A stretch of 64,000 nucleotides of DNA, from NCBI GenBank assembly GCA_018822805.1, contig JAHJJU010000051.1, forward strand, positions 1 through 64,000, written 5' to 3'. This document shows, piece by piece, positions 10,623-51,089 of the stretch. The position numbers and the translations under genes were made by a program. Positions within the stretch are counted from its first letter, which is position 1. Each line of letters opens with the position of its first letter. The notes beneath the pieces were generated by a model. The model was given only the letters and a program-made list of their open reading frames with translations, ran no database searches and was not told the DNA's origin. Source of the DNA: a bacterium (GTDB lineage Bacteria > Campylobacterota > Campylobacteria > Campylobacterales > Sulfurovaceae).

Positions 10623-10646
10623 GGTGCGTTGCAAAACGCACCCTAC
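10623..10646 (-). repeat. REP-like hairpin with GTAG head (GTAGGGTGCGTTTTGCAACGCACC on the minus strand)
   Basis: 8-bp stem ggtgcgtt/aacgcacc; head overlaps the TAG stop of the 10643 CDS. Confidence 0.75.
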
Positions 10647-11059
10647 TTCCAAAATTTAAAACTACTCAATAACAAAGCCAAAGCTAAAGCCATATCAACA
10701 ACTCCGACAGCAAGTAAAAACCAATAATTTCCATGAGCCAAACTTGAAAGATACGCTCCTAAACCAATCATACTAACTAAAAAAATAAAAAATCTTACTC
10801 TATAAAATTGCCAAACTTTAGGCTCTTTTAGTTCAGCGATACGTTTTAGATTCTTTTGACAACTTTTTATAAAAATATATTTTGTTTTGAGTAAAGCTAA
10901 AAAAAGACCAAAAAAAAGCATCATCGTTAATACAAAAACATTATTGTCTAAAGAGTAAGCTTCTGAAAAGAGTTTATAGGACTTTAATGACAAAGCAATA
11001 AACCCACCGTACCAGACTATGGCTGCTAAAATTTTTAATGTACTTTTATTAACTTTCAA
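10643..11059 (-). CDS. Hypothetical membrane protein (138 aa)
   Basis: Four hydrophobic segments; no recognised family. Confidence 0.6.
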   Translation of the reverse strand: MKVNKSTLKILAAIVWYGGFIALSLKSYKLFSEAYSLDNNVFVLTMMLFFGLFLALLKTKYIFIKSCQKNLKRIAELKEPKVWQFYRVRFFIFLVSMIGLGAYLSSLAHGNYWFLLAVGVVDMALALALLLSSFKFWK

Positions 11060-11069
11060 ATATTATCCC

Positions 11070-11095
11070 GTAGGTCGGACTGCCCTCTGCCCGAC
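11070..11095 (+). repeat. REP-like hairpin, GTAGGTCGGACTGCCCTCTGCCCGAC
   Basis: Inverted counterpart of the copy at 11176-11201. Confidence 0.75.
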
Positions 11096-11175
11096 ATAAA
11101 TATGCATAAAATAAAGTCTAAAATATTGATAGAAGTTTGGATAAAATCAAAAACATATAAGATGTTTACGTATAC

Positions 11176-11201
11176 GTCGGGCAGAGGGCAGCCCGACCTA
11201 C
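11176..11201 (-). repeat. REP-like hairpin, GTAGGTCGGGCTGCCCTCTGCCCGAC on the minus strand
   Basis: 7-bp stem GTCGGGC/GCCCGAC; head contains the recG TAG stop (11198-11200). Confidence 0.8.
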
Positions 11202-12982
11202 AAATTTTGAACTCTCTCTTTTGCTACTTTGACGATCTGCTCGTCATCTGCTAAATTTAACCATCTGAACTGTAATCCACTCTGGACAGTACCGTCTAAA
11301 ATATCACCAGAGTTTCTAAACTTCAAATCCAACTTCGCAATTTCAAAACCACTCATCGTTTGTGTAAAGGATCTTAAGCGTTCATTTTTCTTATTGTTGG
11401 TAAAAAGATAACACCAACTTTTTAAACCCAAACGCCCCACTCTTCCTCGTAATTGATGCAGTGTTGCTAAACCTAAACGTTCAGCTCCAACAATCACTAT
11501 AAGCGTTAAACAGGGTAAAGAGATGCCCACTTCTACAACGGTGGTTGCTAAAAGTATCTCACCATTGTCTCGAAATTTTCTTAAAACTTCCTCTTTATTT
11601 TTATCTTTTCCATGGGTTACGTAGACATTCTGAAACTTTTTTTCCCAAAATCCTCGACCCTCTTCAATTGATTGGTAAGGTATCTGTGTACTCTCTTCTA
11701 CCAAAGGATAGATAATAAGTACTTGATGATTTTGGGCGATTTGCTCTTTAATATCTTCTAAGAGTTCAGGAAAATCCTCTTTACCGATAATCCGTGTCGT
11801 AATATCTTTTTCAAAAGGAGTGGTGGTAATTAAACTGACATCAATCAATTCAGACTCCATCATGGCTTGTGTTCTTGGAATGGGCGTTGCTGAAAATTGT
11901 AAATAATGAGGTTTCTCCTCTTTGGAACTCATCAGCTGCTCCAGTATGGCACGTTGTTTGGTTCCAAAACGATGTTGTTCATCGACCATTACCAAAGAGG
12001 CTTTAGGTAAATCTTCTTTATAGAGTAAGGCATGGGTTCCCACAACAAAATCTGCTGTTAGGTAATCGCCTTCTGTTTTTCCTTGTTTAACTAAAGCAAT
12101 ACTCATGGATTGGGGTAAAAATTTAACAGCCTCGTCATAGATCTGCACAGCAAGCAATGAAGTTGGTGCCATTAAGATGCTTTTTTTAGGATACGCCATA
12201 ACAGCAGCAGCTAAAATCACCACTGTTTTACCTGAACCAACATCTCCAATAATCAAACGTTTTGCTGCTTTTTCTTTTGATTTTAAATCTTGTTGAACTT
12301 CATAAATGACTTTTTGTTGTTCTTTGGTTAACTGAAAAGGAAGGCTTTTAACAAAAGGAATAAGTTCTCCGTTTAAAACATCTAAAGCAGGAAAATCTTC
12401 TCGTTTTCCTCTAAGCTTTTTGATGTGATTGAACGCTTCTACAAATTTTAAAACATCCCTATCATAGGTCTGTGTTTGTTGAATCGTTTGTGGATAATGT
12501 AGTCCAAGTAGTGTTGCAACCTCCAGGCTGTCTAAACCTTCAGCATAAAGATTTTGCTCAGATATATAATACTCGATAAGGGAACGCATACTGCTCTCTT
12601 TTACCTCGGTACTGTATTTAGGAATAATCTCACCCACTTTTTTGAGTGATTTTGCTTGATTCATTTGTAAAAAACCTCGATACTCCTCTACCCTACCTTG
12701 TATGTAATGTTGTGACCCTAGTGTATAAAGTTGGCGATGATAAGGAGTTACTTTAAAGAGCATGGAGCTTATACGCCTATTGAATTGTAGTAGATAAAAA
12801 CCTATACGCAACCTTCCATTAATATTTGAAACCTCATCCACCTTGGCTTCAAAAGTTTGTACTTCACCAATCTTAATACTTTGGGCTAAGGTGGTGTTGT
12901 TGTATGAAGAAGGAATATGCAATGCCAGATCCAATAAAGAGGTAATTTTTAATTTTTGAAACAAAGCTTTAGCTTCTTGCAT
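11198..12982 (-). CDS. recG: ATP-dependent DNA helicase RecG
   Basis: GDVGSGKTVV Walker A, VDEQHRFGTKQR, SATPIPRT, QLRGRVGR motifs. Confidence 0.95.
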   Translation of the reverse strand: MQEAKALFQKLKITSLLDLALHIPSSYNNTTLAQSIKIGEVQTFEAKVDEVSNINGRLRIGFYLLQFNRRISSMLFKVTPYHRQLYTLGSQHYIQGRVEEYRGFLQMNQAKSLKKVGEIIPKYSTEVKESSMRSLIEYYISEQNLYAEGLDSLEVATLLGLHYPQTIQQTQTYDRDVLKFVEAFNHIKKLRGKREDFPALDVLNGELIPFVKSLPFQLTKEQQKVIYEVQQDLKSKEKAAKRLIIGDVGSGKTVVILAAAVMAYPKKSILMAPTSLLAVQIYDEAVKFLPQSMSIALVKQGKTEGDYLTADFVVGTHALLYKEDLPKASLVMVDEQHRFGTKQRAILEQLMSSKEEKPHYLQFSATPIPRTQAMMESELIDVSLITTTPFEKDITTRIIGKEDFPELLEDIKEQIAQNHQVLIIYPLVEESTQIPYQSIEEGRGFWEKKFQNVYVTHGKDKNKEEVLRKFRDNGEILLATTVVEVGISLPCLTLIVIVGAERLGLATLHQLRGRVGRLGLKSWCYLFTNNKKNERLRSFTQTMSGFEIAKLDLKFRNSGDILDGTVQSGLQFRWLNLADDEQIVKVAKERVQNL

Positions 12983-13124
12983 ACGTTTCCTTTATGAAAT
13001 TTATACACATTATACAAAAAAAATAAACAGAGTAGCCATTTTATGTCATATTGTCATATGGTTACAAGCACTTAAATAATCATATTATTTAACAATTGTG
13101 CTTACATTCTTCACATTTATAAAG

Positions 13125-13130
13125 TATAAT
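13125..13130 (+). promoter_or_regulatory. Putative -10 element TATAAT upstream of the REC-PAS-EAL gene
   Basis: aaagTATAATctataaataaaataatt. Confidence 0.4.
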
Positions 13131-13147
13131 CTATAAATAAAATAATT

Positions 13148-15115
13148 ATGGATAATTTAATGAATCTTGATCACAATACATTAAAACTTTTATATGTCGA
13201 AGATAATGAACAAGCACGTAAGTCTACCCAAATTATTTTACAAGAATATTTTAATCATATTCTTGTAGCTGTCGATGGAGAAGATGGTTTCAATAAATTT
13301 AAAAATAATGCTGTTGATCTCATCATTACCGACATTAATATGCCAAAACTTAATGGTATTGAAATGATTCAAAAAATTCGATCTATTAATAAAGAAGTTC
13401 CTATTTTAGTTATTTCAGCATACAGTGACACACACTACTTTACCGACAGTATCAAACATGGGGTTCAAGGTTATATTTTAAAACCTTTAAATATCCATCA
13501 GCTAGAAGAGGCTATTAATACAATTAAAGTGAAGATTGTTAAAAATCATCAGCGAAAAAACAGTACGCGTTTACTGAGACAGTATCAAGAGATAGCTGAT
13601 AAAAGTACCATTATTTCCAAAACAGATCTCAATGGTATGATTACCTATGTCAATGATGAGTTTTGTAGAACTTCAGGCTATACACGTGAAGAACTTATTG
13701 GTCAATCTCATAATATTGTTCGTTCTCCTGATGAACCGGCTATTATTTTTAAAAAATTATGGGAGACAATTAAAGAGAAAAAAGAGACATGGCACGGAGT
13801 TATTAAGAACCAATCAAAAAACGGTGACATCTATTATGTAAAAACCACCATAAAACCCATACTCGATTATAAGGATGATATTGAAGAGTTTATCGCTTTA
13901 AGAACGCTCATCACCGATATTATACATCCTAAAAAACAACTCATGGATCTTTTAGCCTCCTTAGATGAATCCATCGTGGTCCTTATTAAAATAGAAGACT
14001 TTAACTATATTGAGACTCCTTTAGAGAAAGAGGAAAGCAATAAACTTCAAAAAGAGTTTGCAAAAAAAATCTTTACATGGATACCTAAAAAGTGTCGATT
14101 TTCTAAAGTCTATCTTTTAGAAGAAGGCGAATTTGTTTTTGCAAAAAAATATGTACATACCCTTCAAGTTAATGAATTAATAAAAGATATACAATATTTT
14201 CAACAACAAATCAACGCTACAAAAATCAATATTTCACCTATAGATTATGATCTTTCTATTATAATTAGTTTGGGCTACGGTAAAAATGCTTTTGAAAATG
14301 CACAAATAGGTTTAACCGATTTATTAGAAACCAAACAAGATTTCATTATTGCCAATGAGCTTTTAAACACTAAAAAAAGTGAAGCGTTAGAAACCATTGA
14401 GACATTCAAAATGGTTAAAAAAGCAATCGACTCCTATAATATCGTCTCCTATTTTCAGCCCATTGTCAACAACAAAACACAACAAATAGAAAAATACGAA
14501 TCACTGGTTCGTCTTATAGATGAAGAGAAAAACATTATCTCTCCCCATTTTTTTTTAAATACGGCAAAAGAGGGTAAATACTACAAACAAATTACCTCTA
14601 TGGTATTAAAAAACTCATTTAATGCCTTGGTGAAAACCAATATGAATATTTCGATTAACCTCTCTGCTCTTGATATTGAAAAAATAGAGACCAAAGAGAT
14701 CTTCTTTAACTTATTGGAACAGCATAAAGAACAAGCTCATAAACTCACTTTAGAGCTTCTTGAAGATGAAGCCATTAAAAATGTAAACACCATTAAAGAG
14801 TTTATTAAACAAGTTCGATCCTATGGGGTAAGCATTGCCATTGATGATTTTGGTACAGGTTACTCAAACTTTACAAGACTCCTTGAGTACCAACCCGACT
14901 ATATAAAAATAGATGGCAGTTTAATTCTTAATATTGAACACGATAATTTTTCAAAAAACATGGTTGAGACCATTGTTGCTTTTGCAAAAAAACAAGGCAT
15001 TAAAACCATTGCCGAGTATGTAGAGAGTGAGGGTATTTTTAATATTCTTTGTGAGTTGGGCGTTGACGCTTCTCAAGGTTACTATTTTGGTAAACCTACT
15101 CAATTAGAATCATGA
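13148..15115 (+). CDS. Response regulator with REC, PAS, degenerate GGDEF and EAL domains; start may be the second ATG at 13160
   Basis: REC (LYVEDNEQARK...DLIITDINMPKLNG); PAS (TYVNDEFCRTSGYTREELIGQSHNIVRSPDEP); EAL region (YESLVRL, IDDFGTGYSNFTRLLEYQPDYIKIDGSLI). Confidence 0.9.
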   Translation: MDNLMNLDHNTLKLLYVEDNEQARKSTQIILQEYFNHILVAVDGEDGFNKFKNNAVDLIITDINMPKLNGIEMIQKIRSINKEVPILVISAYSDTHYFTDSIKHGVQGYILKPLNIHQLEEAINTIKVKIVKNHQRKNSTRLLRQYQEIADKSTIISKTDLNGMITYVNDEFCRTSGYTREELIGQSHNIVRSPDEPAIIFKKLWETIKEKKETWHGVIKNQSKNGDIYYVKTTIKPILDYKDDIEEFIALRTLITDIIHPKKQLMDLLASLDESIVVLIKIEDFNYIETPLEKEESNKLQKEFAKKIFTWIPKKCRFSKVYLLEEGEFVFAKKYVHTLQVNELIKDIQYFQQQINATKINISPIDYDLSIIISLGYGKNAFENAQIGLTDLLETKQDFIIANELLNTKKSEALETIETFKMVKKAIDSYNIVSYFQPIVNNKTQQIEKYESLVRLIDEEKNIISPHFFLNTAKEGKYYKQITSMVLKNSFNALVKTNMNISINLSALDIEKIETKEIFFNLLEQHKEQAHKLTLELLEDEAIKNVNTIKEFIKQVRSYGVSIAIDDFGTGYSNFTRLLEYQPDYIKIDGSLILNIEHDNFSKNMVETIVAFAKKQGIKTIAEYVESEGIFNILCELGVDASQGYYFGKPTQLES

Positions 15116-16110
15116 AAAATTTTATTTTTATATTTTTAATTTTCACCGGTCTATTTTCCAATGAATTTGATACGCAACTCAATAAAATTCAAACCCATAC
15201 CATAGAGATACAAGAAAATAAAGATCATGCCATACTTCAACAACTTAGCATTACATTTAGCATTATTTTACTTGGTATTTTCTTATGGATTTTACAACTA
15301 AAAAAGCATAATAAAAAACTCCAAAAAATCAAAAATGAACTTCGTAATTTAAACCAAACTCTCGAAGAGAGGGTTCAAATTGAAGTAGAAAAAAATAAAA
15401 AACATCAACTTATTATGTTACATCAATCACGCTTAGCTCGAATGGGTCAAACCATTAATATGATTGCCCATCAATGGCGACAACCATTAAACAACTTAGC
15501 ACTTATAAATCAAGTTTTGGTTCTACGCTACAATAAATATGGACTCGATGATAATGCCATCAATGAATTTAAACATGACTCAACCATACAAATAGAAGAG
15601 ATGTCCAATACCATTAATGATTTTAAAGATTTCTTCAAACCCGATAGAGAAAAAGTTGAATTTGATCCTAAAGCAGTCATTAAACACTCCATTAGATTAA
15701 TGAAGCCAAGCTTAATAAGTAAACACATACAGATTTTCATAGAATACAGAGACACCGTTAAGCTCATCGGTTATCCCAATGAATTTGGACAAAGTATTAT
15801 GAACATCCTAAGCAATGCCAAAGATGCCTTAGTCGAAAACAATCACGATAAAAAACGTGAAATCTATCTTAATTTATATACCGAACACGATCAAGCAGTC
15901 ATTACCATTACTGATAATGCCGGAGGAATAGCCTCCGAGGTTATCAATAATATCTTCGATCCCTATTTCTCCACTAAAACCACCAAAGCAGGTACAGGTC
16001 TTGGTCTCTATATGTCCAAAATGATTATAGAAGAGCATATGCATGGTCAGCTTAGCGTTTCCAATAATAAAAACGGTACATGCTTTACTATTCGTCTAAA
16101 AATAGGTTAA
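15112..16110 (+). CDS. Membrane-anchored sensor histidine kinase
   Basis: MIAHQWRQPLNNLALINQVL H-box; DNAGGIASEVINNIFDPYFSTK...GTGLGLYMSKMIIEEHM; overlaps upstream CDS by 4 nt. Confidence 0.9.
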   Translation: MKNFIFIFLIFTGLFSNEFDTQLNKIQTHTIEIQENKDHAILQQLSITFSIILLGIFLWILQLKKHNKKLQKIKNELRNLNQTLEERVQIEVEKNKKHQLIMLHQSRLARMGQTINMIAHQWRQPLNNLALINQVLVLRYNKYGLDDNAINEFKHDSTIQIEEMSNTINDFKDFFKPDREKVEFDPKAVIKHSIRLMKPSLISKHIQIFIEYRDTVKLIGYPNEFGQSIMNILSNAKDALVENNHDKKREIYLNLYTEHDQAVITITDNAGGIASEVINNIFDPYFSTKTTKAGTGLGLYMSKMIIEEHMHGQLSVSNNKNGTCFTIRLKIG

Positions 16111-16113
16111 ACT

Positions 16114-17403
16114 CTATTCTTTTTCTCCGGTAACCACAGAAAATGAGATATCAGCGATCTCTTTATGCTTTTTAATAAAGGCATTCAATTCATCCAATGT
16201 CATTGCTTCAATTTTCTTCAAATTCTCAACCGATTCACCTAGAGGACGATTGCTATAATATTCTTGGAAAGCACGACCTAAACGTTGAGATAAGGTTTCA
16301 TTTCTAAGAGGTTCAGAGCCTAAAAGAAACTGCTGTGCTGAAGTCAACTCCTCTTTTGTGACTCCTTTATCTAAAAAGGTTTGAACCACCTCTTTAACAC
16401 TTTTTACTGCCTCATCACCACTCTTTATTTTTGTTTGTAAATAACCTGAAAAATATGAATGTGTTTTATTAACATTAAAATGACTGTAAACGGAATAGAC
16501 CAAACCTTTTTTAACCCGTATCTCTTCCATAAGACGAGAACCAAATCCTGAACTTCCTAAAATAAATGATGCTACGTCAGAAAGATGTCTCTCTTTAGAA
16601 TCATAAGCCATATCCAAAGGTGCTCCAAAATAGACATAAGCTTGTTCACTTTTTACCAAAGTTTCTTTAATTTGTTGCTTTGCAATCGCTTTCATGGTCT
16701 GAATCTCAACGCTTTTAATACTCGAAAGTCCACTCAATACCTCTTTAGCAAAAGATGAAGCTTCACGCTCATTTAAATCACCACCCATCACAACAATGGC
16801 ATTTTCTAATCCCAAATGAGTGTTAATATAGGCTTTGATATCCTTTATCGTAATACTCTCTACACTCTTCACCGTTCCCAATGATGCTTTGGCTAAGGCA
16901 GTGTCTTTAAAAAGCATCTTTTTCATCTTTAATGAAGAGATATAATCAAAATCACTCTCTTTTCGTTTTAAGCTTCCTATCGTTTGTGTCTTAATATGGT
17001 TTAGCGTCTCTTCACTGTAGTTTGGATTTTCTAAAAGTTCTTTAAGCAGTTCAACGCCATAAGCAAACTCACTTTTTAAAGAACCAAGTTCAATAACAAA
17101 TGTTTCTGCACCTGCATCTGCTGATAGTGAAATGGCTCTATTTTCCAATTTGGTTGCGAACTCCACACTGCCATCTTTTTTAGTCCCTTCATTCAGAAGT
17201 TTTGAACTCAACTTTACTAAGCCGTCTTTACTGTCTGTTAATGAACCCGAATTTTTAAATATCAATTGCATCGAAACAATTGGTAAGTTTTTATCTTCTT
17301 CAAATATGAAAGGGATTTCATTATTTTTTATTGTAATTGGGCTTAATGTAGCACTCATTAATATTCCTTGTATCATTGTCATTAAAATTATTATTTTTTT
17401 CAT
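16114..17403 (-). CDS. M16-family peptidase-like protein (processing-protease type)
   Basis: GTKKDGSVEFATKLENRAISLSADAG, GFGSRLMEEIRVKKGLVYSVYSHF and C-terminal M16 fold; no HxxEH zinc motif seen in the N-terminal part, so possibly the non-catalytic type. Confidence 0.8.
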   Translation of the reverse strand: MKKIIILMTMIQGILMSATLSPITIKNNEIPFIFEEDKNLPIVSMQLIFKNSGSLTDSKDGLVKLSSKLLNEGTKKDGSVEFATKLENRAISLSADAGAETFVIELGSLKSEFAYGVELLKELLENPNYSEETLNHIKTQTIGSLKRKESDFDYISSLKMKKMLFKDTALAKASLGTVKSVESITIKDIKAYINTHLGLENAIVVMGGDLNEREASSFAKEVLSGLSSIKSVEIQTMKAIAKQQIKETLVKSEQAYVYFGAPLDMAYDSKERHLSDVASFILGSSGFGSRLMEEIRVKKGLVYSVYSHFNVNKTHSYFSGYLQTKIKSGDEAVKSVKEVVQTFLDKGVTKEELTSAQQFLLGSEPLRNETLSQRLGRAFQEYYSNRPLGESVENLKKIEAMTLDELNAFIKKHKEIADISFSVVTGEKE

Positions 17404-17407
17404 TAAG

Positions 17408-18469
17408 CTAAAATCTCTCTAAAATCTCATACGCAGTATTACGTTTTGCAGGATGTTCACCTATATCACGAATAAGATGAATCATCTCATCTTGATTCAT
17501 CGAGTTTGCAGCTCCTGCAGCTGAAACCACATTCTCTTCCATCATGGTTGAGCCCAAATCATTCGCTCCAAATTGCAAGGCCATCTGACCAATGTAGCTG
17601 CCTTGAGTCACCCATGAACTTTGAATATTGGGTACATTGTCTAAAAAGAGCCTCGCCACTGCCAAATAACGTAAATACTGATTTGAAGAGGTCTTCTCTA
17701 TGGTCGGCAACTCTCGTTTAAGTTCTGTATGATCGCTTTGATACGACCACATTATAAAAGCTCTAAATCCACCTGTCTCATCTTGCAATTGCCGTACCAA
17801 ATCAAAATGTTCTACTATCTCTTTAGTGGTCTCAACAGTTCCATACATCATCGTAGCTGTTGATTTAATACCAAGTTTATGTGCCTCTCTATGTACTTCT
17901 AACCATCTGTCTTTATCCAGCTTTTTAGGAGCGATAATATCACGAACCCTATCACTTAATATCTCAGCACCTGCACCAGGTATAGAACTGAGTCCTTTAG
18001 CTTTAAGCCGTGCCAATACTGCTGAAATGGAGATATTTGAACGTCGTGCTATATAATCAATCTCAATTGCTGAGAAACCATGAATGGTTACCTGTGGGTA
18101 TTTTTGATGAATATGCTCCACCAAATCCTCATACCACTCTATTTCAAGTTTTGGATGCACCCCACCTTGAAAAAGAATCTGTGTCCCACCAATAGCCAAT
18201 AACTCTTCTATCTTTTGATCAATCTCATCAAAGGTTAAAATATAAGCATCTTCTTTTTTCTCATGGGTATAAAAAGCACAAAATTTACAATCAACCCAAC
18301 AAATATTGGTATAGTTAATGTTTCTGTCCACCACAAAGGTAGTGACCCCTTTAGGGTGTAACTCTTTTTTACGGGCTCTTGCCATTTTTCCTAAGGTCTT
18401 CAAATCAGCTTTTTCGATGAGCTCTACAGCTTCATCTATCGTCATTCTTCTGTCTTTTAAGGCACTCAT
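17408..18469 (-). CDS. mqnC: Cyclic dehypoxanthinyl futalosine synthase, radical SAM
   Basis: INYTNICWVDCKFCAFYTHEKKEDAY radical-SAM CxxxCxxC; start moved from 18646 to MSALKDRR at 18469 (SD aaggat upstream). Confidence 0.88.
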   Translation of the reverse strand: MSALKDRRMTIDEAVELIEKADLKTLGKMARARKKELHPKGVTTFVVDRNINYTNICWVDCKFCAFYTHEKKEDAYILTFDEIDQKIEELLAIGGTQILFQGGVHPKLEIEWYEDLVEHIHQKYPQVTIHGFSAIEIDYIARRSNISISAVLARLKAKGLSSIPGAGAEILSDRVRDIIAPKKLDKDRWLEVHREAHKLGIKSTATMMYGTVETTKEIVEHFDLVRQLQDETGGFRAFIMWSYQSDHTELKRELPTIEKTSSNQYLRYLAVARLFLDNVPNIQSSWVTQGSYIGQMALQFGANDLGSTMMEENVVSAAGAANSMNQDEMIHLIRDIGEHPAKRNTAYEILERF

Positions 18470-18500
18470 TTTTATCCTTAGTTTAATATTTCTAAATCTA

Positions 18501-18953
18501 TTATTCCGGCTTCTCTTTCGGTACATTTGTCTCTGCAGGTATTTCAATACCTGCAGACGACTCTTTTCCAACTGCATCAAGTACAGCATTAATAAATTTT
18601 GGTGATTTATCGTCAGCCAAAGCTTTAGCCAACTCAATTGCTTCATTAATAATAATACGTTTATCCGTACCGGCTATAAGAATCTCATACGTTGCTAAAC
18701 GTAAAATAGATTTTTCTACTTTCCCGATAGAGTGATAATCCCAATCTTTTAAATGTTTTTTAACTTCCATATCAATCACAGCAAGATTATCAATGGTTCC
18801 CTGAAAAAGAGCTTTTGAAAATTCTTTTTGTTTGTTACGAATTTTATCTTCTTCGAAAATTTCGTCTGAAAAAGCAGCGATGTTATCGTTACCTAAATCG
18901 TATGCGTAGAGTAGTCCTACCACTGCTGTTCGTGCTTGATGTCGTGTTGCCAT
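18501..18953 (-). CDS. nusB: Transcription antitermination factor NusB
   Basis: MATRHQARTAVVGLLYAYDLG...DKRIIINEAIELAKALADDKSPKFINAVLDAV; start moved from 19076 to 18953 (SD aaggtaa). Confidence 0.9.
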   Translation of the reverse strand: MATRHQARTAVVGLLYAYDLGNDNIAAFSDEIFEEDKIRNKQKEFSKALFQGTIDNLAVIDMEVKKHLKDWDYHSIGKVEKSILRLATYEILIAGTDKRIIINEAIELAKALADDKSPKFINAVLDAVGKESSAGIEIPAETNVPKEKPE

Positions 18954-19041
18954 AGTTATTACCTTTTTACTTTCATTCTCAATCGAATGCATATCAAAAC
19001 TCAATGAATGAATTTTGATATACATTTTTCTGTTTTGAAAT

Positions 19042-19063
19042 GGTGTATTGAAATACACCCTAC
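19042..19063 (-). repeat. REP-like hairpin, ggtgtatt/aatacacc, GTAG head on the minus strand
   Basis: Direct reading; inverted relative to 19094-19115. Confidence 0.7.
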
Positions 19064-19093
19064 ACGTCCAAATCATTATAAAATTTCAAAACT

Positions 19094-19115
19094 GTAGGGT
19101 GCAATTTATTGCACC
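19094..19115 (+). repeat. REP-like hairpin GTAGGGTGCAATTTATTGCACC
   Basis: Direct reading; pairs with 19042-19063 as an inverted couple. Confidence 0.75.
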
Positions 19116-19126
19116 ATTAATCAGAA

Positions 19127-19597
19127 TTATTCTTCTAACGCACTATAAAGGTTCATCATCTCAATCAATCCTGCCATTGCTTCCCCACCTTTATTTCCTG
19201 CTTTGGTACCTGCACGCTCTATTGCTTGTTCAATGCTATTCACGGTCAAGACACCATACGTCACCGGTTTTCCATGTTTCATGGTGGCACTTGCTACACC
19301 TTTGGTTGCCTCTGCCGATACATAATCAAAATGAGGTGTTGCACCACGAATAACAGCTCCTAAACAACAGACAGCATCATATTTTCCGGATGCCAATGCC
19401 TTGTCTAGAGCAAATGGGATTTCAAATGCACCCGGAACCAAGATTAAATCCAAATCGTCTACATTTCCACCATGTCTTGCGTACACATCTTGTGCACCTT
19501 CTACCAATCTATCGGTAATAAAATGGTTGAATCGTGCATTAATAATCGCTACTTTTTTACTCTTATCTACGCTTAAGTTACCTTCTACTGTTGTCAT
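19127..19597 (-). CDS. ribH: 6,7-dimethyl-8-ribityllumazine synthase
   Basis: [17 protein letters not shown]...[15 protein letters not shown]...[17 protein letters not shown]...[26 protein letters not shown]. Confidence 0.95.
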
Positions 19598-19653
19598 CTA
19601 CTTCCTTCGTTACTTAATAATTTGAAATAATTATAACAAATTAAACTTTTTTT

Positions 19654-19676
19654 GGTGCAATAAATTGACACCCTAC
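19654..19676 (-). repeat. REP-like hairpin GTAGGGTGTCAATTTATTGCACC (minus strand)
   Basis: Head contains the kdsA TAG stop (19673-19675); identical to the copies at 20489 and 20542. Confidence 0.8.
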
Positions 19677-20473
19677 TCTACAATGCTTCTAATTGCATCT
19701 ATTTGTTTAACCAAGGCTTCTAACTTTTTCAACTCTATCATGTTTGGTCCATCACTCAGTGCAATGCTTGGGTCAAAATGTGTTTCAAAAAAGAATCCAT
19801 CCACACCCACAGCTGCTGCAGCACGTGACAAATACGGCACCATCGAACTGTCACCACCAGAGGTTGCTCCACCTGATGCCGGTGATTGTACCGAATGTGT
19901 GGCATCAAAAATCACCGGTGCAAACTCTCGCATAATTTTAAGTCCACGCATATCCACCACCAAATTTCCATAACCAAAACTAGACCCCCGTTCAGTCAAC
20001 CAAATACCATATTTTTCAGCACTTTCATGGCTTATTTTACCATCAAATCCTCGGGTTTTAAGCACTTTAGCTACCGAATGTTCCATCGCTTCTGGGGCTA
20101 AAAACTGTCCTTTTTTAATGTTGACCACAGCTGATGTTTTAGCACAAGCCACCAACAAATCGGTCTGACGACATAAAAAAGCAGGAATCTGTAAAACATC
20201 CACCACTTCTGCTGCTGCTTGTGGTTGCGTGTAGTCATGAACGTCGGTTAAAAGTTTATATCCAAATTGTTCTTTAACCTCTTGGAGAAGCTTTAATCCC
20301 TCATCAAGCCCTGGACCTCTAAATGAGTCCAATGATGTTCGATTGGCTTTATCAAAACTTGCTTTAAAGTAAAAATCTTTTGTGCAATCTTCATGGTATT
20401 TATTAAGTGATTCTGCAATTTTCATTACATTGTCACGGCTTTCAAGTACACAAGGTCCGGCAATTAGTATCAT
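19673..20473 (-). CDS. kdsA: 3-deoxy-8-phosphooctulonate synthase
   Basis: [15 protein letters not shown]...[19 protein letters not shown]...DATHSVQSP; start corrected from GTG at 20506 (inside a repeat) to ATG at 20473 with SD aagga. Confidence 0.93.
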
Positions 20474-20488
20474 GTTTTTCCTTAAGGT

Positions 20489-20511
20489 GGTGCAATAAAT
20501 TGACACCCTAC
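20489..20511 (-). repeat. REP-like hairpin, identical to 19654-19676
   Basis: ggtgcaataaattgacaccctac. Confidence 0.8.
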
Positions 20512-20541
20512 TCTTCTTACATTCCAGTAGGGTGCATTCCT

Positions 20542-20564
20542 GTAGGGTGTCAATTTATTGCACC
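20542..20564 (+). repeat. REP-like hairpin, inverted identical copy; preceded by a partial copy gtagggtgcattcc (20527-20540)
   Basis: gtagggtgtcaatttattgcacc. Confidence 0.8.
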
Positions 20565-20575
20565 ATTCTATAATT

Positions 20576-22802: not shown

Positions 22803-22885
22803 TTTAACCGAGTACCCTTCCGGATTTGACTTCATATGCAATATCTAATTAGAGATATTACATAACTTGTTTCGAACTCAGGTTT

Positions 22886-29022: not shown

Positions 29023-29988
29023 ATGCGTGTACTAACAGGAATTCAAGCTTCAGGTAAACTCCATATTGGAAACTACTTTGGTGCAATGAAACCCATGATA
29101 GAGCTTCAAGAGAGTGAAGAACTTTTTACTTTTATTGCCAACTATCACTCACTTACCACGTCAAAAGATGCAAAACTGTTACATCAACTTACATTTGATG
29201 CTGCAGTTGACTATTTATCATTGGGGATTGATCCTCATAAAACAACATTTTGGGTACAAAGTGATGTTCCACAAGTATTAGAGCTTTATTGGATTCTCTC
29301 TAAATTTACATCCATGGGACTACTTGAAAGAGCCCACTCTTATAAAGACAAAATTGCCAAAGGTATTGCAGCCAATCATGCTCTTTTCTCTTATCCTGTG
29401 TTGATGGCTGCTGATATTTTACTGCTCGATACACAAAAAGTTCCTGTAGGAAAAGACCAAATTCAACATGTTGAAATGACAAGAGACATTGCCACGAAGT
29501 TTAACAATGAATACGGTGAAATTTTCACCCTACCAGAACATGTGGTCGAAGAGCATGTTGCAACCATCCCAGGAATTGATGGACAAAAAATGTCGAAAAG
29601 TTATGACAATGCCATCGATATTTTTATGGAGACGGAAAAGAAACTACAAAAACGTTGTAATAAGATTATTAGCTCATCAACCCCAATGGGTGAACCTCTT
29701 GAGTATGAAGGCTGCAACATCTATAACATTGCTTCTCTCTTCTTGGATGAGAATAAAAAAGTAGAACTTCAGAAACGTTATAAAACAGGGGAAGAGGGTT
29801 ACGGTCACTTTAAAAAATACCTCAAAGAGCTTATTTGGGAAGAGTTTGCCGAGGCTAGAGAGAAACGTGCTTACTATCTTGAACACCCTGATATGGTCAA
29901 AGATATATTAAGTGATGGAGCTCAAAAAATGCAAAAAATTGCCAATGCTAAAATGGCGATTGTTCGTAAGGCTGTAGGGTTGTATTAA
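29023..29988 (+). CDS. trpS: Tryptophanyl-tRNA synthetase
   Basis: GIQASGKLHIGNYFGA (HIGH-type) and GQKMSKSYDNAI (KMSKS). Confidence 0.96.
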   Translation: MRVLTGIQASGKLHIGNYFGAMKPMIELQESEELFTFIANYHSLTTSKDAKLLHQLTFDAAVDYLSLGIDPHKTTFWVQSDVPQVLELYWILSKFTSMGLLERAHSYKDKIAKGIAANHALFSYPVLMAADILLLDTQKVPVGKDQIQHVEMTRDIATKFNNEYGEIFTLPEHVVEEHVATIPGIDGQKMSKSYDNAIDIFMETEKKLQKRCNKIISSSTPMGEPLEYEGCNIYNIASLFLDENKKVELQKRYKTGEEGYGHFKKYLKELIWEEFAEAREKRAYYLEHPDMVKDILSDGAQKMQKIANAKMAIVRKAVGLY

Positions 29989-30010
29989 TCCTGTACATCA
30001 ATTCTATAAA

Positions 30011-30036
30011 GGGTAGAGACATGGCTCTACCCCTAC
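30011..30036 (-). repeat. GTAG-headed hairpin GTAGGGGTAGAGCCATGTCTCTACCC (minus strand)
   Basis: 8-bp stem gggtagag/ctctaccc; head contains the murI TAG stop (30033-30035). Confidence 0.7.
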
Positions 30037-40793: not shown

Positions 40794-40800
40794 GCCTGCC

Positions 40801-43278: not shown

Positions 43279-43293
43279 GAGTCTCCTAACTGT

Positions 43294-43857
43294 TTATAAG
43301 CTTGCTAACAATTCATCAAATGATTTGGTTTTTAAAAACTCAGCAAACTGTTTTCGATACGTTTGAATAATACTCACTCCTGTAATCTCTACATCATAAA
43401 TAAGCCAATCGCTACTGTTGTTAACTTTAAAAAATTTATAAATTACCTCATAAGTCTCTTCTACCCCTATAATATCACTGTGGAGTTGAATTCGTGTTGC
43501 TTTTACTTTCTCTAGCTCTTTAACACGTACTTTCTGATCGGTATAAAGTTCCAGTTTTTCAAAGTAAGAAGCTTTTAGTTTTCCTTCAAAAGCAGTCATA
43601 AATCTATTTTTTTCATCATCACTTAAGGTTTTCCATTTTTTTCCCAAACTAATTTGGGACATGGTTTTATAATCAAAAACACCATCAATATTTGAGTAAA
43701 TCTTCTCTTTTTTACTTTCAACAGGAAGCATTTTATCTTGTAGTACGGTCGTAATCTCATCTATTTTAATTGTCATCTCTGTTTTAATATTTGACTCAGA
43801 AATACCCAAAAGCGTACTCATGGTTAATAGGGTTAGCAGCACTGTTTTTTTTAACAT
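43294..43857 (-). CDS. MlaC/Ttg2D-family periplasmic lipid-binding protein
   Basis: Signal peptide; FDYKTMSQISLGKKWKTLSDDEKNRFMTAFEGKLKASYFEKLELY; YDVEITGVSIIQTYRKQFAEFL. Confidence 0.9.
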   Translation of the reverse strand: MLKKTVLLTLLTMSTLLGISESNIKTEMTIKIDEITTVLQDKMLPVESKKEKIYSNIDGVFDYKTMSQISLGKKWKTLSDDEKNRFMTAFEGKLKASYFEKLELYTDQKVRVKELEKVKATRIQLHSDIIGVEETYEVIYKFFKVNNSSDWLIYDVEITGVSIIQTYRKQFAEFLKTKSFDELLASL

Positions 43858-43871
43858 TATTCAATCCTTTC

Positions 43872-44645
43872 TTATTGTTCTATCTCTTTAGCTCTTTGTT
43901 GTTCATAGGTATCTCTAAAAAAGAGATACAGATCAAGAGCATCTTTTTTTAAGTTTTCATATTCTCCGGGATGTAAAGAGTTTTTATTGACATAATAAGC
44001 TGTGGCAATGCCCAACGATTCGGTTGTATTTTCAACAGCTTGATACTCTAATGAACCTGAAGTAATTGGATCCATCCATGTATCAACCCCAAAACCTAAA
44101 GTATCTCGTAAATTCGAAGGTCCTAAAAATGGCAAAACAACATGAAAACCCGAACCCACACCATAGTGCCCCAAGGTCTGTCCGAAATCTTCTTCTTGAG
44201 GTTCAATTCCTTCCATTTTAGCCACATCAACAAAACCCAATACCCCTACCGTAGAATTGATCATAAATCGTCCAAGCTCTTTCATAGAAGCATCAAATTT
44301 CAACTGTAATAGATTGTTTGAAAAACGTATGGGAAACTTTAGATTATGAAAAAAATTTGAAAGTCCAATTCGTGCTGTTTTAGGAACAACCGTTGCATAC
44401 CCTTCTGAAACAGGATTAAATAGATGAATATATATCTTATCATTGGTATTGGTCATCCATCGATTATACCCTTTTAAAGGGTCAAAAACTTCTCTGTTTT
44501 CATCTTCAAATTCATCATCAAACTCATCCACGTCACTCTCTTGAATAAGCGTACTTTTATTGCTCTCCTGTGGCAAAACATCTAATTTTTGAGAACATCC
44601 TGTAAATGTAAATACGATGAAAAATATAAATATAAAATATTTCAT
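43872..44645 (-). CDS. mlaA: MlaA/VacJ-family outer-membrane lipoprotein
   Basis: Lipobox FTGCS; FDPLKGYNRWMTNTNDKIYIHLFNPVSEGY; EEDFGQTLGHYGVGSGFHVVLPFLGPSNLRDTLG. Confidence 0.92.
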   Translation of the reverse strand: MKYFIFIFFIVFTFTGCSQKLDVLPQESNKSTLIQESDVDEFDDEFEDENREVFDPLKGYNRWMTNTNDKIYIHLFNPVSEGYATVVPKTARIGLSNFFHNLKFPIRFSNNLLQLKFDASMKELGRFMINSTVGVLGFVDVAKMEGIEPQEEDFGQTLGHYGVGSGFHVVLPFLGPSNLRDTLGFGVDTWMDPITSGSLEYQAVENTTESLGIATAYYVNKNSLHPGEYENLKKDALDLYLFFRDTYEQQRAKEIEQ

Positions 44646-44736
44646 TAACCACTCCTTGTTTTATTGAATATACATTTATTGATTTTATCAATATTTTTGT
44701 TAAGTAATCGTTGAAAAACTGTAATATAATTAAATA

Positions 44737-46254
44737 TTACAGATTAAAGACTTTTTCTCTACCAAACATCATAATAGTAAAAGAGACAAAGGTTCCCACA
44801 ATCATCATAACAGCAAAATCCACTTTTACATCAATGAAGTTCCCAATAACATAAGGTTGTAAAACAAGTACCGTTAAGAACCCACCTATTAATGCCCATA
44901 AAACCGTCTGTTCATTACCTCTGTTGGTAAATATGGCAGCCCCATAAACCCCTAAAAGTGCAGCATAAGCAAATGCCATGACACCCAATGCAAAATTGAG
45001 CAGAGGCAGTTCTGTGTACTGCTGCCAATAAAAGCTTATCATTGCCATTCCACAAAGTAGTAGAGCAAAAGTAAGAACCATCACACGACTCGCTTTTAAA
45101 AAGTGTGCTTCATCTCTACCCTCTTTTGCCAACCAAGGTCGGTAAATATCCTCTACAGCTACAGACGCCATGGCAGAAAGCACCGAATTGGTAGAAGAGA
45201 GTGCTGCAGCAATGGCTCCAACGGTTACCAAACCTCGTAACCCTTCGGGCATTTCATTCAAAATATAAAGCATAAATATGGTCACACTCTGACCATCGAC
45301 ATTTTGGTCAACGCAAGCTGCTGTAATACCTGAAATTTCAGGATGCTGATAGAAAATGTACAACAAAAGACCAATCACTAAAAAAAGAAATGCTACAGGT
45401 AGCGTAAAAAGAATGGAGTAAATAAGCGATTTTCGTCCCTCTTTTTCATTTTTACACGTCAAAACCCTTTGTGTCATATCTTGGTCAAGACCATAGGCTG
45501 CGATATTTAATAAAAACCACCCTGTCAAGAGTGTCCAAATGGTGAAACCACCTGAGAAAGAAAAATCAACCAATTTAAGTTTATTATTCTCACTCAATGT
45601 ACTCATTAACGTCGAAAAGTCTGTATTCATACTGTAGTAAAGATACACCAATACAGCCACACCTGCTCCTATATAAGTAACGGCTTGAATAACATCGGAT
45701 AAAATAACCGATTTCACTCCTCCAAAATAGGTATATGCCAAGGCTCCCAACATCAAAATAGCAATAGATATTGCCACATGAGAAGCGATAATATCGGAAA
45801 ACAGAATCATAGAGATAGCCAATGCACCGATGTAAAGTCTGGCTCCACTGGCAAAAAGTCGTCCTACCAAAAACATTATTCCTGCATACCGTTTAGAGGT
45901 CTCTGTGTAACGATGTTCTAAGTACTCATAAACTGTAATGGCATTAATCTCATAAAATCTAGGAACCAATACTTTAGAGACAAAAATCACAGCTAAAAAT
46001 GCTGAGGCATAAAAACCTAAAAAAGTTAAATCATTTTTGTAAGCGTACTCCGGTCCTCCTAAAAAAGTAGCAGCCGATTGAGAAGTTGCCAGTACAGAAA
46101 TGGCAACTGCCAACATGGGCATGGTATTTCCCCCTGTAAAATAGTCACGTGAAGTTTTTACTTTATTCTGACTCAAAATCACCGAAGTAAGAATAAGCAT
46201 TAAAAAATATGAAGCGAATATCATCCAGTCTAGGGTACTGAAGTTTGATTGCAT
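44737..46254 (-). CDS. Sodium:solute symporter family protein
   Basis: SSS-family helices; TGGNTMPMLAVAISVLATSQSAATFLGGPEYAY; GLDQDMTQRVLTCKNEKEGRKS. Confidence 0.88.
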   Translation of the reverse strand: MQSNFSTLDWMIFASYFLMLILTSVILSQNKVKTSRDYFTGGNTMPMLAVAISVLATSQSAATFLGGPEYAYKNDLTFLGFYASAFLAVIFVSKVLVPRFYEINAITVYEYLEHRYTETSKRYAGIMFLVGRLFASGARLYIGALAISMILFSDIIASHVAISIAILMLGALAYTYFGGVKSVILSDVIQAVTYIGAGVAVLVYLYYSMNTDFSTLMSTLSENNKLKLVDFSFSGGFTIWTLLTGWFLLNIAAYGLDQDMTQRVLTCKNEKEGRKSLIYSILFTLPVAFLFLVIGLLLYIFYQHPEISGITAACVDQNVDGQSVTIFMLYILNEMPEGLRGLVTVGAIAAALSSTNSVLSAMASVAVEDIYRPWLAKEGRDEAHFLKASRVMVLTFALLLCGMAMISFYWQQYTELPLLNFALGVMAFAYAALLGVYGAAIFTNRGNEQTVLWALIGGFLTVLVLQPYVIGNFIDVKVDFAVMMIVGTFVSFTIMMFGREKVFNL

Positions 46255-46516
46255 GTGCTACCTTTAAAAAATTTTAATGATTATAACAAAAGTAGAAAGA
46301 ATAACAAAAAGAAAAAGATCAAAATATAAGTTAAACACGCCAAATTATTATATTTTCAACAATACTAAATATTGTTATTTCGGTATTTCTAGGCTGTTAC
46401 AAGAGTCAACAAACACTTATAGTTTAATAACTTTTCCTAATAAATTATAAGAACATAATGACTTTATAGCTAAGATACTATTGAATATTTAGTAATAAAA
46501 TTTTCTAAGGATATAA

Positions 46517-47974
46517 ATGAGGTTTCTGCTCATTACATTTTTTTTCTCTTTTTCTTTTTTACAAGCTCAAACAGATGAACCCGTTATCAAACACAAACTC
46601 AATTGTAATATGACCATACAATATATAAAAAAACCTAAAAAAGTACAAAGTATTAAAGATCTTCTTTCAGAAGGAATATTCTATGGAAGAATTCGATTCA
46701 ACAACTTTCTATTTGACAAAGGCGTTGTAGGTGAGAATTACTATATCGCCGGACTCGGTGGTAGTTTAATCTATAAAAGTGCTTATTTAAATGGGTTTTC
46801 TGCAACAACAGGAGCCTATACTTCTCAAAATATCGGTCATATGGACAGCAGTTTGGTTGATGATTATCGTGCAGGAAAAGATGTACTCAATCGTTATAAC
46901 GTTGCTACTTCCAATGAGTATGGCTTAAACTCACTGGCACTGGCGTATGGAGAATATAAAACACGTAAAGAGCAAATTAAAATAGGTCGTTTTCCTTTAG
47001 AAACCCTTCTTCTAAAAACAAATGATACTAAAATGATTCCCAATACCTTTGAAGGGATCTATTTTAGAACACGCTCCTTTCCAAAAACAACCATTCAATC
47101 TGCCTACATCACCAAACAGAAACTTAGAGATCATAATCAATTTCATCATGTTCTAGCCTACGGTGATGATAGCAGTGACCCCTATAGCAAGTGGACACAA
47201 AATGATGATGCAGGAATGCATCGAGGTTTAACCATTAGTAAACTTGCCGATAGAAACATTAAAGACAGACTTTTTGTACTCGACGCAATAAACAGCAGTA
47301 TGGATGACATTACATTCAAAGCAAGCTATATAATGGCTCCTGATTTACTCTCTTCTCTTATACTTGAAAGTCGCTATATGGTTGAATTTGATGAGCTAAG
47401 AGTCATGCCTTCAATCCGTTATATGCAACAATTTGACAATGGTGCCGGTTCTATTGGAGGAGCCAATTTAAAAAACAACACCATTGCCTATAAAGATCCG
47501 GAAAGTTTAAATGCAGCACTCATAGCCGGTCGTATCGACTTTCTTAAAGGAGCTTCTACCCTACGTTTAGGGTATTCAAAAGTAGAGAACCAAGGGGATA
47601 TTGTTGCTCCTTGGCGTGGTTTTCCCACAGCCGGATACAGCAGAGCTATTGGACAAACCAACTGGTATGCCAATACTCAAACGTATATGCTTCGTGCCGA
47701 TTATGATTTTTCTAAAGCTGAAATACTTAAGGGATTAAGAGGCGTGGTACGTTATGCTGTTAACGACTTTGATGACAACAAACCGGGAGTACAAGCTGAT
47801 TCAAATGTCTTAAGTTTTGACATTGTAAAACGTTATGAATCCATGCCAACACTGCATACAAAAATTCGTACAGCCTTTATTAACGGCGATAATCAGACTA
47901 TTGCAGAAGACAATTCAAAAAAAACAGACCCTTCCTATAATGAGATACGATTAGAGATAAACTACCTCTTTTAA
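46517..47974 (+). CDS. OprD-like outer-membrane porin
   Basis: Signal peptide; alternating beta-strand pattern; C-terminal YNEIRLEINYLF. Confidence 0.7.
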   Translation: MRFLLITFFFSFSFLQAQTDEPVIKHKLNCNMTIQYIKKPKKVQSIKDLLSEGIFYGRIRFNNFLFDKGVVGENYYIAGLGGSLIYKSAYLNGFSATTGAYTSQNIGHMDSSLVDDYRAGKDVLNRYNVATSNEYGLNSLALAYGEYKTRKEQIKIGRFPLETLLLKTNDTKMIPNTFEGIYFRTRSFPKTTIQSAYITKQKLRDHNQFHHVLAYGDDSSDPYSKWTQNDDAGMHRGLTISKLADRNIKDRLFVLDAINSSMDDITFKASYIMAPDLLSSLILESRYMVEFDELRVMPSIRYMQQFDNGAGSIGGANLKNNTIAYKDPESLNAALIAGRIDFLKGASTLRLGYSKVENQGDIVAPWRGFPTAGYSRAIGQTNWYANTQTYMLRADYDFSKAEILKGLRGVVRYAVNDFDDNKPGVQADSNVLSFDIVKRYESMPTLHTKIRTAFINGDNQTIAEDNSKKTDPSYNEIRLEINYLF

Positions 47975-47986
47975 AAATGTTTTTTA

Positions 47987-47995
47987 TGCTATAAT
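47987..47995 (+). promoter_or_regulatory. Extended -10 promoter tgcTATAAT for rnpB
   Basis: ttttttaTGCTATAATaccgg immediately upstream of the RNase P RNA. Confidence 0.6.
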
Positions 47996-48000
47996 ACCGG

Positions 48001-48393
48001 CAGGTGTGGCAGGTAGTTGCTGGTGACTTAGGTCACGAGAGGAAAGTCCGGGCTACAGGTGAGATAGAACTCCATCTAACGGATGGCCAGAGTAATCTGA
48101 GGGCAAGTGCAACAGAGAGTAGACGGCCATCTGCCTATTTGAAGAGAACGCTTCTCTTCTTTCCCCCCCCTATTTCTAAATAGGCAGATGGTCACGGTGA
48201 AAGGGTGAGGTAAGAGCTCACCAGTGCTTATGGTAACATAGGTAGCTAGGTAAACCCTGTTCGTAGCAAGAAGTACATGGTAAAAATCTCACAAAGTCAT
48301 TAAATTGACAATGGTGCTTCGCTTGAGCGTATTGGCAACACTACGCCTAGATAAATAACTACCCACGACAAAACCCGGCTTATCGTCACACCT
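48001..48393 (+). ncRNA. rnpB: RNase P RNA, bacterial type A
   Basis: gagaggaaagtccgggct; gcaacagagag; ggtgaaagggtgaggtaagagctcacc; cacgacaaaacccggcttatcg; P1 pairing aggtgtg/cacacct. Confidence 0.95.
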
Positions 48394-48482
48394 CATTCAT
48401 TAATTTTGAATTTTTAATCATGAATATTGAATTATCATAATCAATTAATGCTATCTTGTTATAATCGGAAAAAAGATTATAC

Positions 48483-49274
48483 ATGAAAATTTTATTTTTA
48501 CTTCTAACGCCCTTGTTTCTCTTTTCTAAAGTTCACTATGCAAAAGTAGAACCTTTTGAAAACATCATGCTTAAAGCTGCTGTCTCAGCACAAGTTACAA
48601 AAACCCAATTAGCCTTAGAAGGTACCAAGGTACAATCGGCAACCATTATTCAACTCGATAACAGACTCGATAAAATAAAATTGGACTCTAGTCAAGCTTC
48701 ACTAAAACTGGTAGACAGTATGTTGAAAACCAATCAAAACATTCTTTTAGCCCTAGGTTCATCGTTAAAGCGACAAAAAGAGTACTACAATCGTATTTCA
48801 AATATTTCATCAGCTTCTAAAACACAAAAAGACAATGCGTTTTATGGCTTTACCAATGCGAAAACACAATACTTCTCAACCAAAGAAAAAATAGACTCGC
48901 TCAAAAAGCAACGTCTTGATTTAAACTATGAGATTGCACGACTTGAAGACTCTATTACAAAAAAAAGTATTAAAGTGAAGAATAAATTTGTTTATAAACT
49001 GTTGGTCAATGAAGGTGACTTTGTCAATATGGGAACTCCTTTGGCAGAGGTAAAAGATTTGTCTTCTGCCAAATTGGTGCTCTTTTTAGAAATAACTGAA
49101 CTTCAAAACATTAAAAACAAAACCATTTATATCAATGATAAAGCAAGTGATTATAAAATTTCTAAAATATGGGAAGTAGCTGATGAGAAGTTCATCTCCT
49201 CTTACCGAACTGAAATTGTCATTAAAAATCCAAAAGAAAGTTTCTCCGAACTGCTAAAGGTTGAATTTAAATGA
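48483..49274 (+). CDS. HlyD/periplasmic-adaptor-like protein
   Basis: Signal peptide; long coiled-coil; KNKFVYKLLVNEGDFVNMGTPLAEVKDLSSAKLVLFLE barrel-like segment. Confidence 0.6.
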   Translation: MKILFLLLTPLFLFSKVHYAKVEPFENIMLKAAVSAQVTKTQLALEGTKVQSATIIQLDNRLDKIKLDSSQASLKLVDSMLKTNQNILLALGSSLKRQKEYYNRISNISSASKTQKDNAFYGFTNAKTQYFSTKEKIDSLKKQRLDLNYEIARLEDSITKKSIKVKNKFVYKLLVNEGDFVNMGTPLAEVKDLSSAKLVLFLEITELQNIKNKTIYINDKASDYKISKIWEVADEKFISSYRTEIVIKNPKESFSELLKVEFK

Positions 49275-51058
49275 GTGAAATAAAAACAACTTGTGGACTT
49301 GACTGTCCTGATGCCTGTGGAATTGTAAGCAGCAATGGAAATATAAAAGCCGATACAAACCACCCCACTTCAAACGGTGCCTTATGTGCCTTGCTGAACA
49401 AATATCTGCCAAAAGAGCCACGTATTACCTCTGCAAGAGTGGCTGGAAAAGAGGTAAGTTTAGAAGAAGCAATGAACGCTACAAAAGAAGCACTAGATAC
49501 CTATGCCAAACTGCTTTGGAGAGGTTCCGGAAACTTTGGAGTGATGCAAGAAATCACCAACCTACTTTTTGAAAAAATAGAAGGAACCACCACCAAAGGA
49601 ACCCTTTGTGATGGTGCAGGTGATGCAGGAATTCTCGAGGGAAGAGAAGTAAACCGAGTTTTACCACCGGAGCAGATAGCTAAAGCAGAAGTTGTCGTTG
49701 TTTGGGGTAAAAACATTACGGTAACGGCATCTCATCTTATGCCTTATCTGGAAGGAAAAGAGATTATTGTTATTGATCCTATTAAAACAGCCATGGCTAA
49801 AAAAGCCGATATTTTTTGTCAAATTGCTCCACGTTCGGACTTTTTTATGGCGATTATGTTGGCACGTTTTGCACACATGGGTGACTTTGAAGATCAAGAG
49901 TATTTAGAAGAACATGCACCCGACCATGAAGACTTCTATGCATTTACACAGGAATTTAGAGTTCGTCCTATCTTAGACTACATCGGTACCGACCTCAATG
50001 AAATGGGTCAAATTCTTGAGATGATTCATGGGAAAAAAACAGTATTTTTAGTTGGAAACGGGGTACAAAAGTACTCCACAGGTCACCATGTTCTACAAGC
50101 CATCGATGCCTTAGCCGTTACACTTGGTAAATTTGGTAAAGAGGGTTGTGGTGTCGGTTTTTTAGCCAATTCTAAACTCAATTTTAAAAACCCTTTTACT
50201 GTAAAAACAACAAAAGTACAAAAAGTAGACACTCCTTTTGGTGACTTTGGAACGGTGCTCATTCAAGGAGGTAACCCTGTAGCTTCCATGCCAAATTCAA
50301 ACCGTGTTATTGAAGAGCTTAAAAAAACAAACACCATTATCTATTATGGTCTCTATGAAAATGAAACCTCTGCCATGGCAGACATTGTCATTCCTGCTAA
50401 AAACTTTTTTGAAAAAGAGGATGTACGCTTAAGCTATGCCCATCAATACGTAGCACCAATGAGAAAAATAGAAGCGTGCGATTACGGTATTAGCGAATAT
50501 GACTTTACCGATATTCTTCTTCAAAAATTTGGTTTTGAGTCACTTCAAAGTGAAGAATACTACATTAACTTATGGTTAGACCAATGTGAAAAGCATGGCG
50601 ACTACTATCTCTCTCCTGCATTTCAAGCCATTCCTTACAAAGACGGTTTTGGAAACGATGGCGATGAAGAGTTTGTTTTCCCCGATGAGTTTGGCGATGA
50701 CTTTATTAAAACCAAGCAGTTTACACGAGCAAGAAAAAAAAGTAAAAAAGAGATCATTATAGAAGATTATTGGCTCATCTCTCCAAAAGCCAACAAAGCA
50801 CTAAATACACAGTTTCAACGCGACAATAAAATTACGTTGCATCCAAGTTTAGGTTTTGAAAACGGAGAAACCATTAACGTCTACTCCGAATGGGGAGAGC
50901 ATCACTTTGAAATAAAAAATTCTGAAGATATGAGAGCAGACGCTGTACTCATTACAGCCAACACCATCGGCGTAAACTTTTTAACCCCAAGCATTATCAG
51001 TGAAGAAGGTGACTCTGCTTGTTATCAAGAGGTTAAGGTGAAGTTAAAACGTATTTAA
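49271..51058 (+). CDS. Molybdopterin-dependent oxidoreductase with N-terminal 4Fe-4S motif
   Basis: TTCGLDCPDACGIV...GALCALLNKY; VVVWGKNITVTASHLMPYL; IQGGNPVASMPN; molybdopterin dinucleotide-binding-like C-terminus. Confidence 0.85.
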   Translation: MSEIKTTCGLDCPDACGIVSSNGNIKADTNHPTSNGALCALLNKYLPKEPRITSARVAGKEVSLEEAMNATKEALDTYAKLLWRGSGNFGVMQEITNLLFEKIEGTTTKGTLCDGAGDAGILEGREVNRVLPPEQIAKAEVVVVWGKNITVTASHLMPYLEGKEIIVIDPIKTAMAKKADIFCQIAPRSDFFMAIMLARFAHMGDFEDQEYLEEHAPDHEDFYAFTQEFRVRPILDYIGTDLNEMGQILEMIHGKKTVFLVGNGVQKYSTGHHVLQAIDALAVTLGKFGKEGCGVGFLANSKLNFKNPFTVKTTKVQKVDTPFGDFGTVLIQGGNPVASMPNSNRVIEELKKTNTIIYYGLYENETSAMADIVIPAKNFFEKEDVRLSYAHQYVAPMRKIEACDYGISEYDFTDILLQKFGFESLQSEEYYINLWLDQCEKHGDYYLSPAFQAIPYKDGFGNDGDEEFVFPDEFGDDFIKTKQFTRARKKSKKEIIIEDYWLISPKANKALNTQFQRDNKITLHPSLGFENGETINVYSEWGEHHFEIKNSEDMRADAVLITANTIGVNFLTPSIISEEGDSACYQEVKVKLKRI

Positions 51059-51066
51059 AATTTTTA

Positions 51067-51089
51067 GTGCGTTAGGAAACGCACCCTAC
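51067..51089 (-). repeat. REP-like hairpin GTAGGGTGCGTTTCCTAACGCAC (minus strand)
   Basis: gtgcgtt/aacgcac stem; head contains the TAG stop of the rhodanese gene. Confidence 0.75.

Follow-up and report, generated by a model that had tools for sequence, protein, structure and literature searches.

Five genes in the 64,000 nt stretch of DNA that was analysed (the window) end at a TAG stop codon that is part of the GTAG heading a hairpin, and on the evidence of their sequences these hairpins are REP elements of the RAYT-dispersed kind. The coincidence of REPs with stop codons is real, lies far above random placement and is specific to GTAG. We put the probability at roughly 70 % that the whole is explained by RAYT-dispersed REPs for which GTAG is mainly the landing site.

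GTAG-headed hairpins in the window and in the host genome

All five hairpins read, on the minus strand, as G-TAG followed by a stem-loop, with the TAG as the in-frame stop, exactly as the first-pass annotation had described at 10643, 11198, 19673, 30033 and 51086. These are five of the ten heads in the window. The other five (11070, 19094 and 20542 on the plus strand, 19060 and 20508 on the minus strand) are not stops. The elements and the stops they supply are as follows.

10623-10646, minus strand: REP of the GGTGCGTT family; head GTAG at 10643-10646, stop at 10643-10645 of a 138 aa membrane-protein ORF
11070-11201, both strands: inverted REP pair, a REPIN-like unit of the GTCGG family, 132 bp; plus-strand head at 11070, minus-strand head at 11198-11201
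11198-11200, minus strand: recG stop (RecG, 594 aa), from the minus-strand head (11198-11201) of the GTCGG-family unit
19042-19063, minus strand: REP (GTAGGGTGTATTTCAATACACC), not a stop; head faces the REP at 19094
19094-19115, plus strand: REP (GTAGGGTGCAATTTATTGCACC), not a stop
19654-19676, minus strand: kdsA REP, bulged GGTGTCAATTTATTGCACC; head gives the kdsA stop at 19673-19675
20489-20511, minus strand: REP immediately 5′ of the likely kdsA ribosome-binding site
20542-20564, plus strand: REP between kdsA and an EamA transporter gene; head faces the REP at 20489-20511
29983-30036, minus strand: murI REP of the GGGTAGAG family, inner segment about 28 nt; head at 30033-30036, murI stop at 30033-30035
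51066-51089, minus strand: rhodanese REP of the GGTGCGTT family, first pair mismatched; head at 51086-51089 supplies the rhodanese stop

The ORF stopped at 19673 belongs to the DAHP-synthase family and is KdsA. As listed, it starts with a GTG at 20506 that lies within a REP, but translation probably begins instead at an ATG near position 20474, some 15 nt past the REP. The sole match in an Rfam scan of the window was RNase P RNA (bacterial class A, 48001-48398), upstream of the gene at 48483.

In the order of the five stops, the stems are GGTGCGTT, GTCGGGC, GGTG(T)CAA, GGGTAGAG and GTGCGTT. The earlier statement that the stems all differ holds in part, as they fall into three or four families. 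However, the hairpins at 10643 and 51086 belong to one family, the latter having a mismatched first pair (GGTGCGTT..AACGCACT). Folded as RNA, the five give energies between -6.1 and -18.9 kcal/mol, and the fold of the kdsA hairpin is weak and bulged (z -1.3). Stem-loops immediately 3′ of genes are common in bacteria, which is in favour of reading these hairpins as intrinsic terminators or chance structures at TAG stops. This reading is nonetheless extremely improbable, given the strict linkage to GTAG and the high-copy families. The T tract sought 3′ of all five hairpins was absent in 5/5, as had been noted before, and its absence argues against an intrinsic terminator.

The host is a Sulfurovum-like MAG (G000; 2.79 Mb, 121 contigs), in which GTAG is the commonest tetranucleotide 5′ of hairpins (23 times the mean rate). 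Genome-wide, there were 94 matches to the pattern GTAGGGTG..CACC and 26 to GTAGGTCGG..CCGAC, against 0-1 for reversed-pattern controls, and these numbers exclude non-dispersed repeats. The GTAG-headed REPs number about 120 and form several stem families, with the GTAG adjoining the palindrome and outside the stem. Many are single and many copies occur as inverted pairs, both head-out and head-facing, at recurring spacings (93 bp units, units of about 132-149 bp and shorter units). Seven Y1_Tnp matches were found in the genome. All six of the Y1_Tnp proteins that were scanned matched NF047646 (REP_Tyr_transpos), two of them above the curated cut-off. The RAYT genes on contigs C13, C25, C86 and C88 are adjoined by REPs, the family of which varies between RAYT genes (GTCGG on C25), and the earlier assignment to RAYT-type REPs is thereby upheld.

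Fully palindromic minimal elements with the structure GTAG-stem-CTAC, and hence a head at either end, were also seen in G000 (C2:38472-38499, C35:2557-2582 and C64:7832-7861). Past the lysA REP, at about 12000 in C118 of G000, there is a second palindrome, CGTTCCCACGGAGACCGTGGGAACG, which possibly represents a further repeat family.

REP occupancy of stop codons and nearby GTAGs

Counts were made in 697 kb of genome stretches, with 655 genes called on codon usage. As 40 of the 60 stretches were chosen around REPs, absolute occupancies are inflated; a blind subset, chosen regardless of REPs, consists of the window and the first 20 contigs. A hairpin directly abuts 34 of the 70 G-TAG stops in the 697 kb but just 5 of the 558 other stops, namely TAA, TGA and TAG without a preceding G (p=2.5e-31), and it is this difference that makes the coincidence both real and GTAG-specific. 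The blind subset gave 7/20 and 3/264, respectively (p=3e-7). The comparison of heads and stops with chance, which the first-pass annotation had named as a check for the full genome, places the coincidence in these 697 kb far above random placement.

Its suggestion that insertion is biased to stop codons is not supported in that form. REPs occupy 28 of the 70 GTAGs at stops (40 %) and 17 of the 46 that lie 1-20 nt downstream (37 %; p=0.85), and occupancy is 27 % at 21-60 nt, about 10 % beyond that and 0.4 % within genes. As the stop and near-downstream values are equal, what REPs follow is GTAG close to the 3′ ends of genes and not stop codons as such. The 111 heads in the 697 kb comprise 28 in-frame stops, 67 in intergenic positions and 16 within called genes; REPs are almost confined to intergenic DNA and cluster no more than 20 nt from the 3′ ends of genes.

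This concentration would suit a selected 3′-end device, a stop plus hairpin taken up to stabilise the mRNA or to control translation, with the REPs at stops retained for that function. So would the lower translation attributed to E. coli REPs ≤15 nt from a stop in PMC12306157, which cites earlier work. However, such a device is unlikely, because REP occupancy at stops is not above that at nearby downstream GTAGs, and most orthologues of REP-stopped genes have no hairpin. The TAA, TGA and non-G TAG stops also lack (5/558) the abutting hairpins that a general stop-plus-hairpin device would predict, although the earlier suggestion that the head was co-opted as a stop and 3′ hairpin keeps a small probability.

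GTAG as landing site or as imported head

An in-frame GTAG terminates the gene with its TAG, and since a REP always starts with GTAG, the TAG of a REP at a gene end is the stop codon. If GTAG serves mainly as a landing site, a RAYT would insert the palindromic unit 3′ of a GTAG that is already there, and a gene ending in NNG-TAG would tolerate the insertion because its protein is unchanged. Such stops would collect REPs, sometimes repeatedly across species, and insertions within genes would be purged. The far end of the unit would bear a CTAC of its own, which could give a convergent gene a new stop. We consider it an even bet that REP units insert site-specifically 3′ of a pre-existing GTAG, with NNG-TAG stops as safe sites that are used again and again and where the target is still the stop of the gene. 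Enrichment at gene ends and use as stops would then follow from site choice and purifying selection, with no dedicated function. By analogy with E. coli, a hairpin directly at the stop codon could delay the release of ribosomes or shield the 3′ end of the mRNA.

Alternatively, the REP may bring the GTAG with it. Insertions at or near gene ends would survive if the GTAG is in frame, the head replacing the old stop, and REPs would generate new stop codons and change the C-termini of proteins. Importation is a serious possibility, although we rate it below an even chance. Published models put the GTAG within the REP, and the biochemistry set out in PMC8266576 takes GTAG as a transposase-bound part of the REP that aids the choice of cleavage site, which speaks against a landing site.

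The positions of the heads argue against importation. Among the 45 REP heads at a stop or up to 20 nt past it, 28 are exactly at the stop (28 : 17), and REP-free GTAGs show the same peak (42 : 29). REPs are read through by only 8 reading frames, whereas random gene-end insertion predicts about twice as many such frames as in-frame stops. Nor are G-TAG stops in surplus in this REP-rich genome, as G precedes 20 of the 61 TAG stops here and 61 of 159 in REP-poor relatives. If the occupied G-TAGs had been imported, the remainder would be low (11/52, against 55/153 in the relatives; p=0.06). In the G000 stretches and the loci of the relatives, G precedes the stop in 36-42 % of genes ending in TAG and in 11-20 % of those ending in TAA or TGA, in REP-poor relatives too.

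Same-position orthologues have G-TAG in 12 of 48 cases for REP-stopped genes and in 12 of 37 for REP-free G-TAG control genes (p=0.48), and the former exceeds the genus rate of 61/519 (p=0.02). When only REP-free same-position orthologues are counted, the values are 7/43 and 10/35 (p=0.27), a comparison that is underpowered. The first-pass annotation held that orthologues with the same TAG and no hairpin would refute its interpretation. Such orthologues exist, with an identically placed G-TAG and no REP, for lysA (L198), kdsA (L217), yajQ (L214), polA (L232) and murI (L215 and L130), and the end of lysA in REP-free L198 is identical (CAA-TCG-TAG). For four genes, another species has a different REP at this G-TAG, namely recG (L203), queC (L225), the C25_8811 gene (L271) and murI (L125); murG (L230) also has a different REP, shifted by one codon. 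However, REP-free G-TAG orthologues could be sites from which a REP has been lost. A seeming REP at the orthologue of an empty control (L312) had been classified in error, and on reading, the control L117/L273 contains a degenerate REP end.

C-termini are unchanged in many REP genes, a further point against importation. The C-terminal stop position is shared by 37 of 60 orthologue pairs for REP genes and by 32 of 37 for the TAA control, which is a small set, and the REP-free G-TAG controls are intermediate (37/49). In L204 (relative G004), recG ends in a REP that is out of frame, so that the stem of the REP, not its head, gives the TAA stop, as importation would allow. The polA, valS and fabH gene pairs are stopped at both ends of a REP unit, and by our reading, removal of the element does not leave clean empty sites in such pairs.

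At murI, a 50 nt element (29983-30032) sits exactly at the stop and gives the convergent trpS a new TAA stop (29986-29988). Interlocked murI and trpS stops are seen in eight REP-free relatives, murI ending in NTA-TAA or NTA-TAG, and TrpS ends in AVGIL* in the relatives and in AVGLY* in the window. A pre-insertion NTG-TAG would break the interlocked trpS stop, and here it may therefore be the element that brought the G. Given the interlocked stops, murI was withdrawn as a clean empty-site proof. Comparison of E. coli strains yielded one informative locus, pgi-yjbE, where two strains have neither the BIME nor a GTAG and the indel exceeds the BIME in size; this locus does not support GTAG as the target.

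The murI/trpS arrangement, the gene pairs stopped at both ends, the weaker C-terminal conservation of REP genes and the single E. coli site fit importation equally well or better. Retention of the target has about even odds overall, somewhat ahead of importation, and both may occur, each at a different end of the unit. As to the GTAG itself, we infer that it is mainly a landing site, favoured over importation at about 60 : 40.

Comparison with known systems

The overlap of REP heads with stops is already published. According to the available text of Di Nocera et al. 2013 (PMC3733652), GTAG REP ends often provide TAG stops, and NBC37-1 carries GTAG repeats. The elements described here share with that GTAG-tagged REP superfamily, as presented there, a GTAG outside the stem, a 5-13 bp stem, inverted dimers, sites downstream of genes and association with RAYTs. 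The same text contains no count relative to available GTAGs, no empty-site comparison and no landing-site proposal, whereas the present analysis has all three.

REP-flanked Y1 HUH transposases are shared with REPtrons/RAYTs, in which the enzyme requires the GTAG head (Nunvar 2010, PMC2817692, and NAR 2021, PMC8266576). In the 2021 TnpA-REP study, GTAG is taken as a sequence for recognition and guidance, and CT or CA as the site of cleavage; the portion available describes recognition and in vitro cleavage and does not report insertion targets. Here, in contrast, the sequence pattern suggests that GTAG may mark the target as well.

Inverted REP pairs with recurring spacing, such as 11070-11201 and several 93 bp units, are shared with REPINs (Bertels and Rainey 2011, PMC3116915). 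However, many REPs here are single, and the pairs include both head-out and head-facing ones. The E. coli REPs near stops that are discussed in PMC12306157 likewise place a hairpin ≤15 nt from the stop, whereas here the stop codon is supplied by the head, at distance zero. With IS200/IS605 only the proposed logic is shared, that is, insertion beside a short target left outside the element. Unlike in IS200/IS605, there is no transposase inside these units, and targeting is only inferred. At empty sites, the G-TAG frequency (12/48, against the 61/519 baseline) bears on a target of this type, and the murI/trpS and E. coli pgi sites are not in its favour. Relative to these systems, the occupancy count, the empty-site comparison and the proposal of G-TAG gene ends as landing sites are possibly new.
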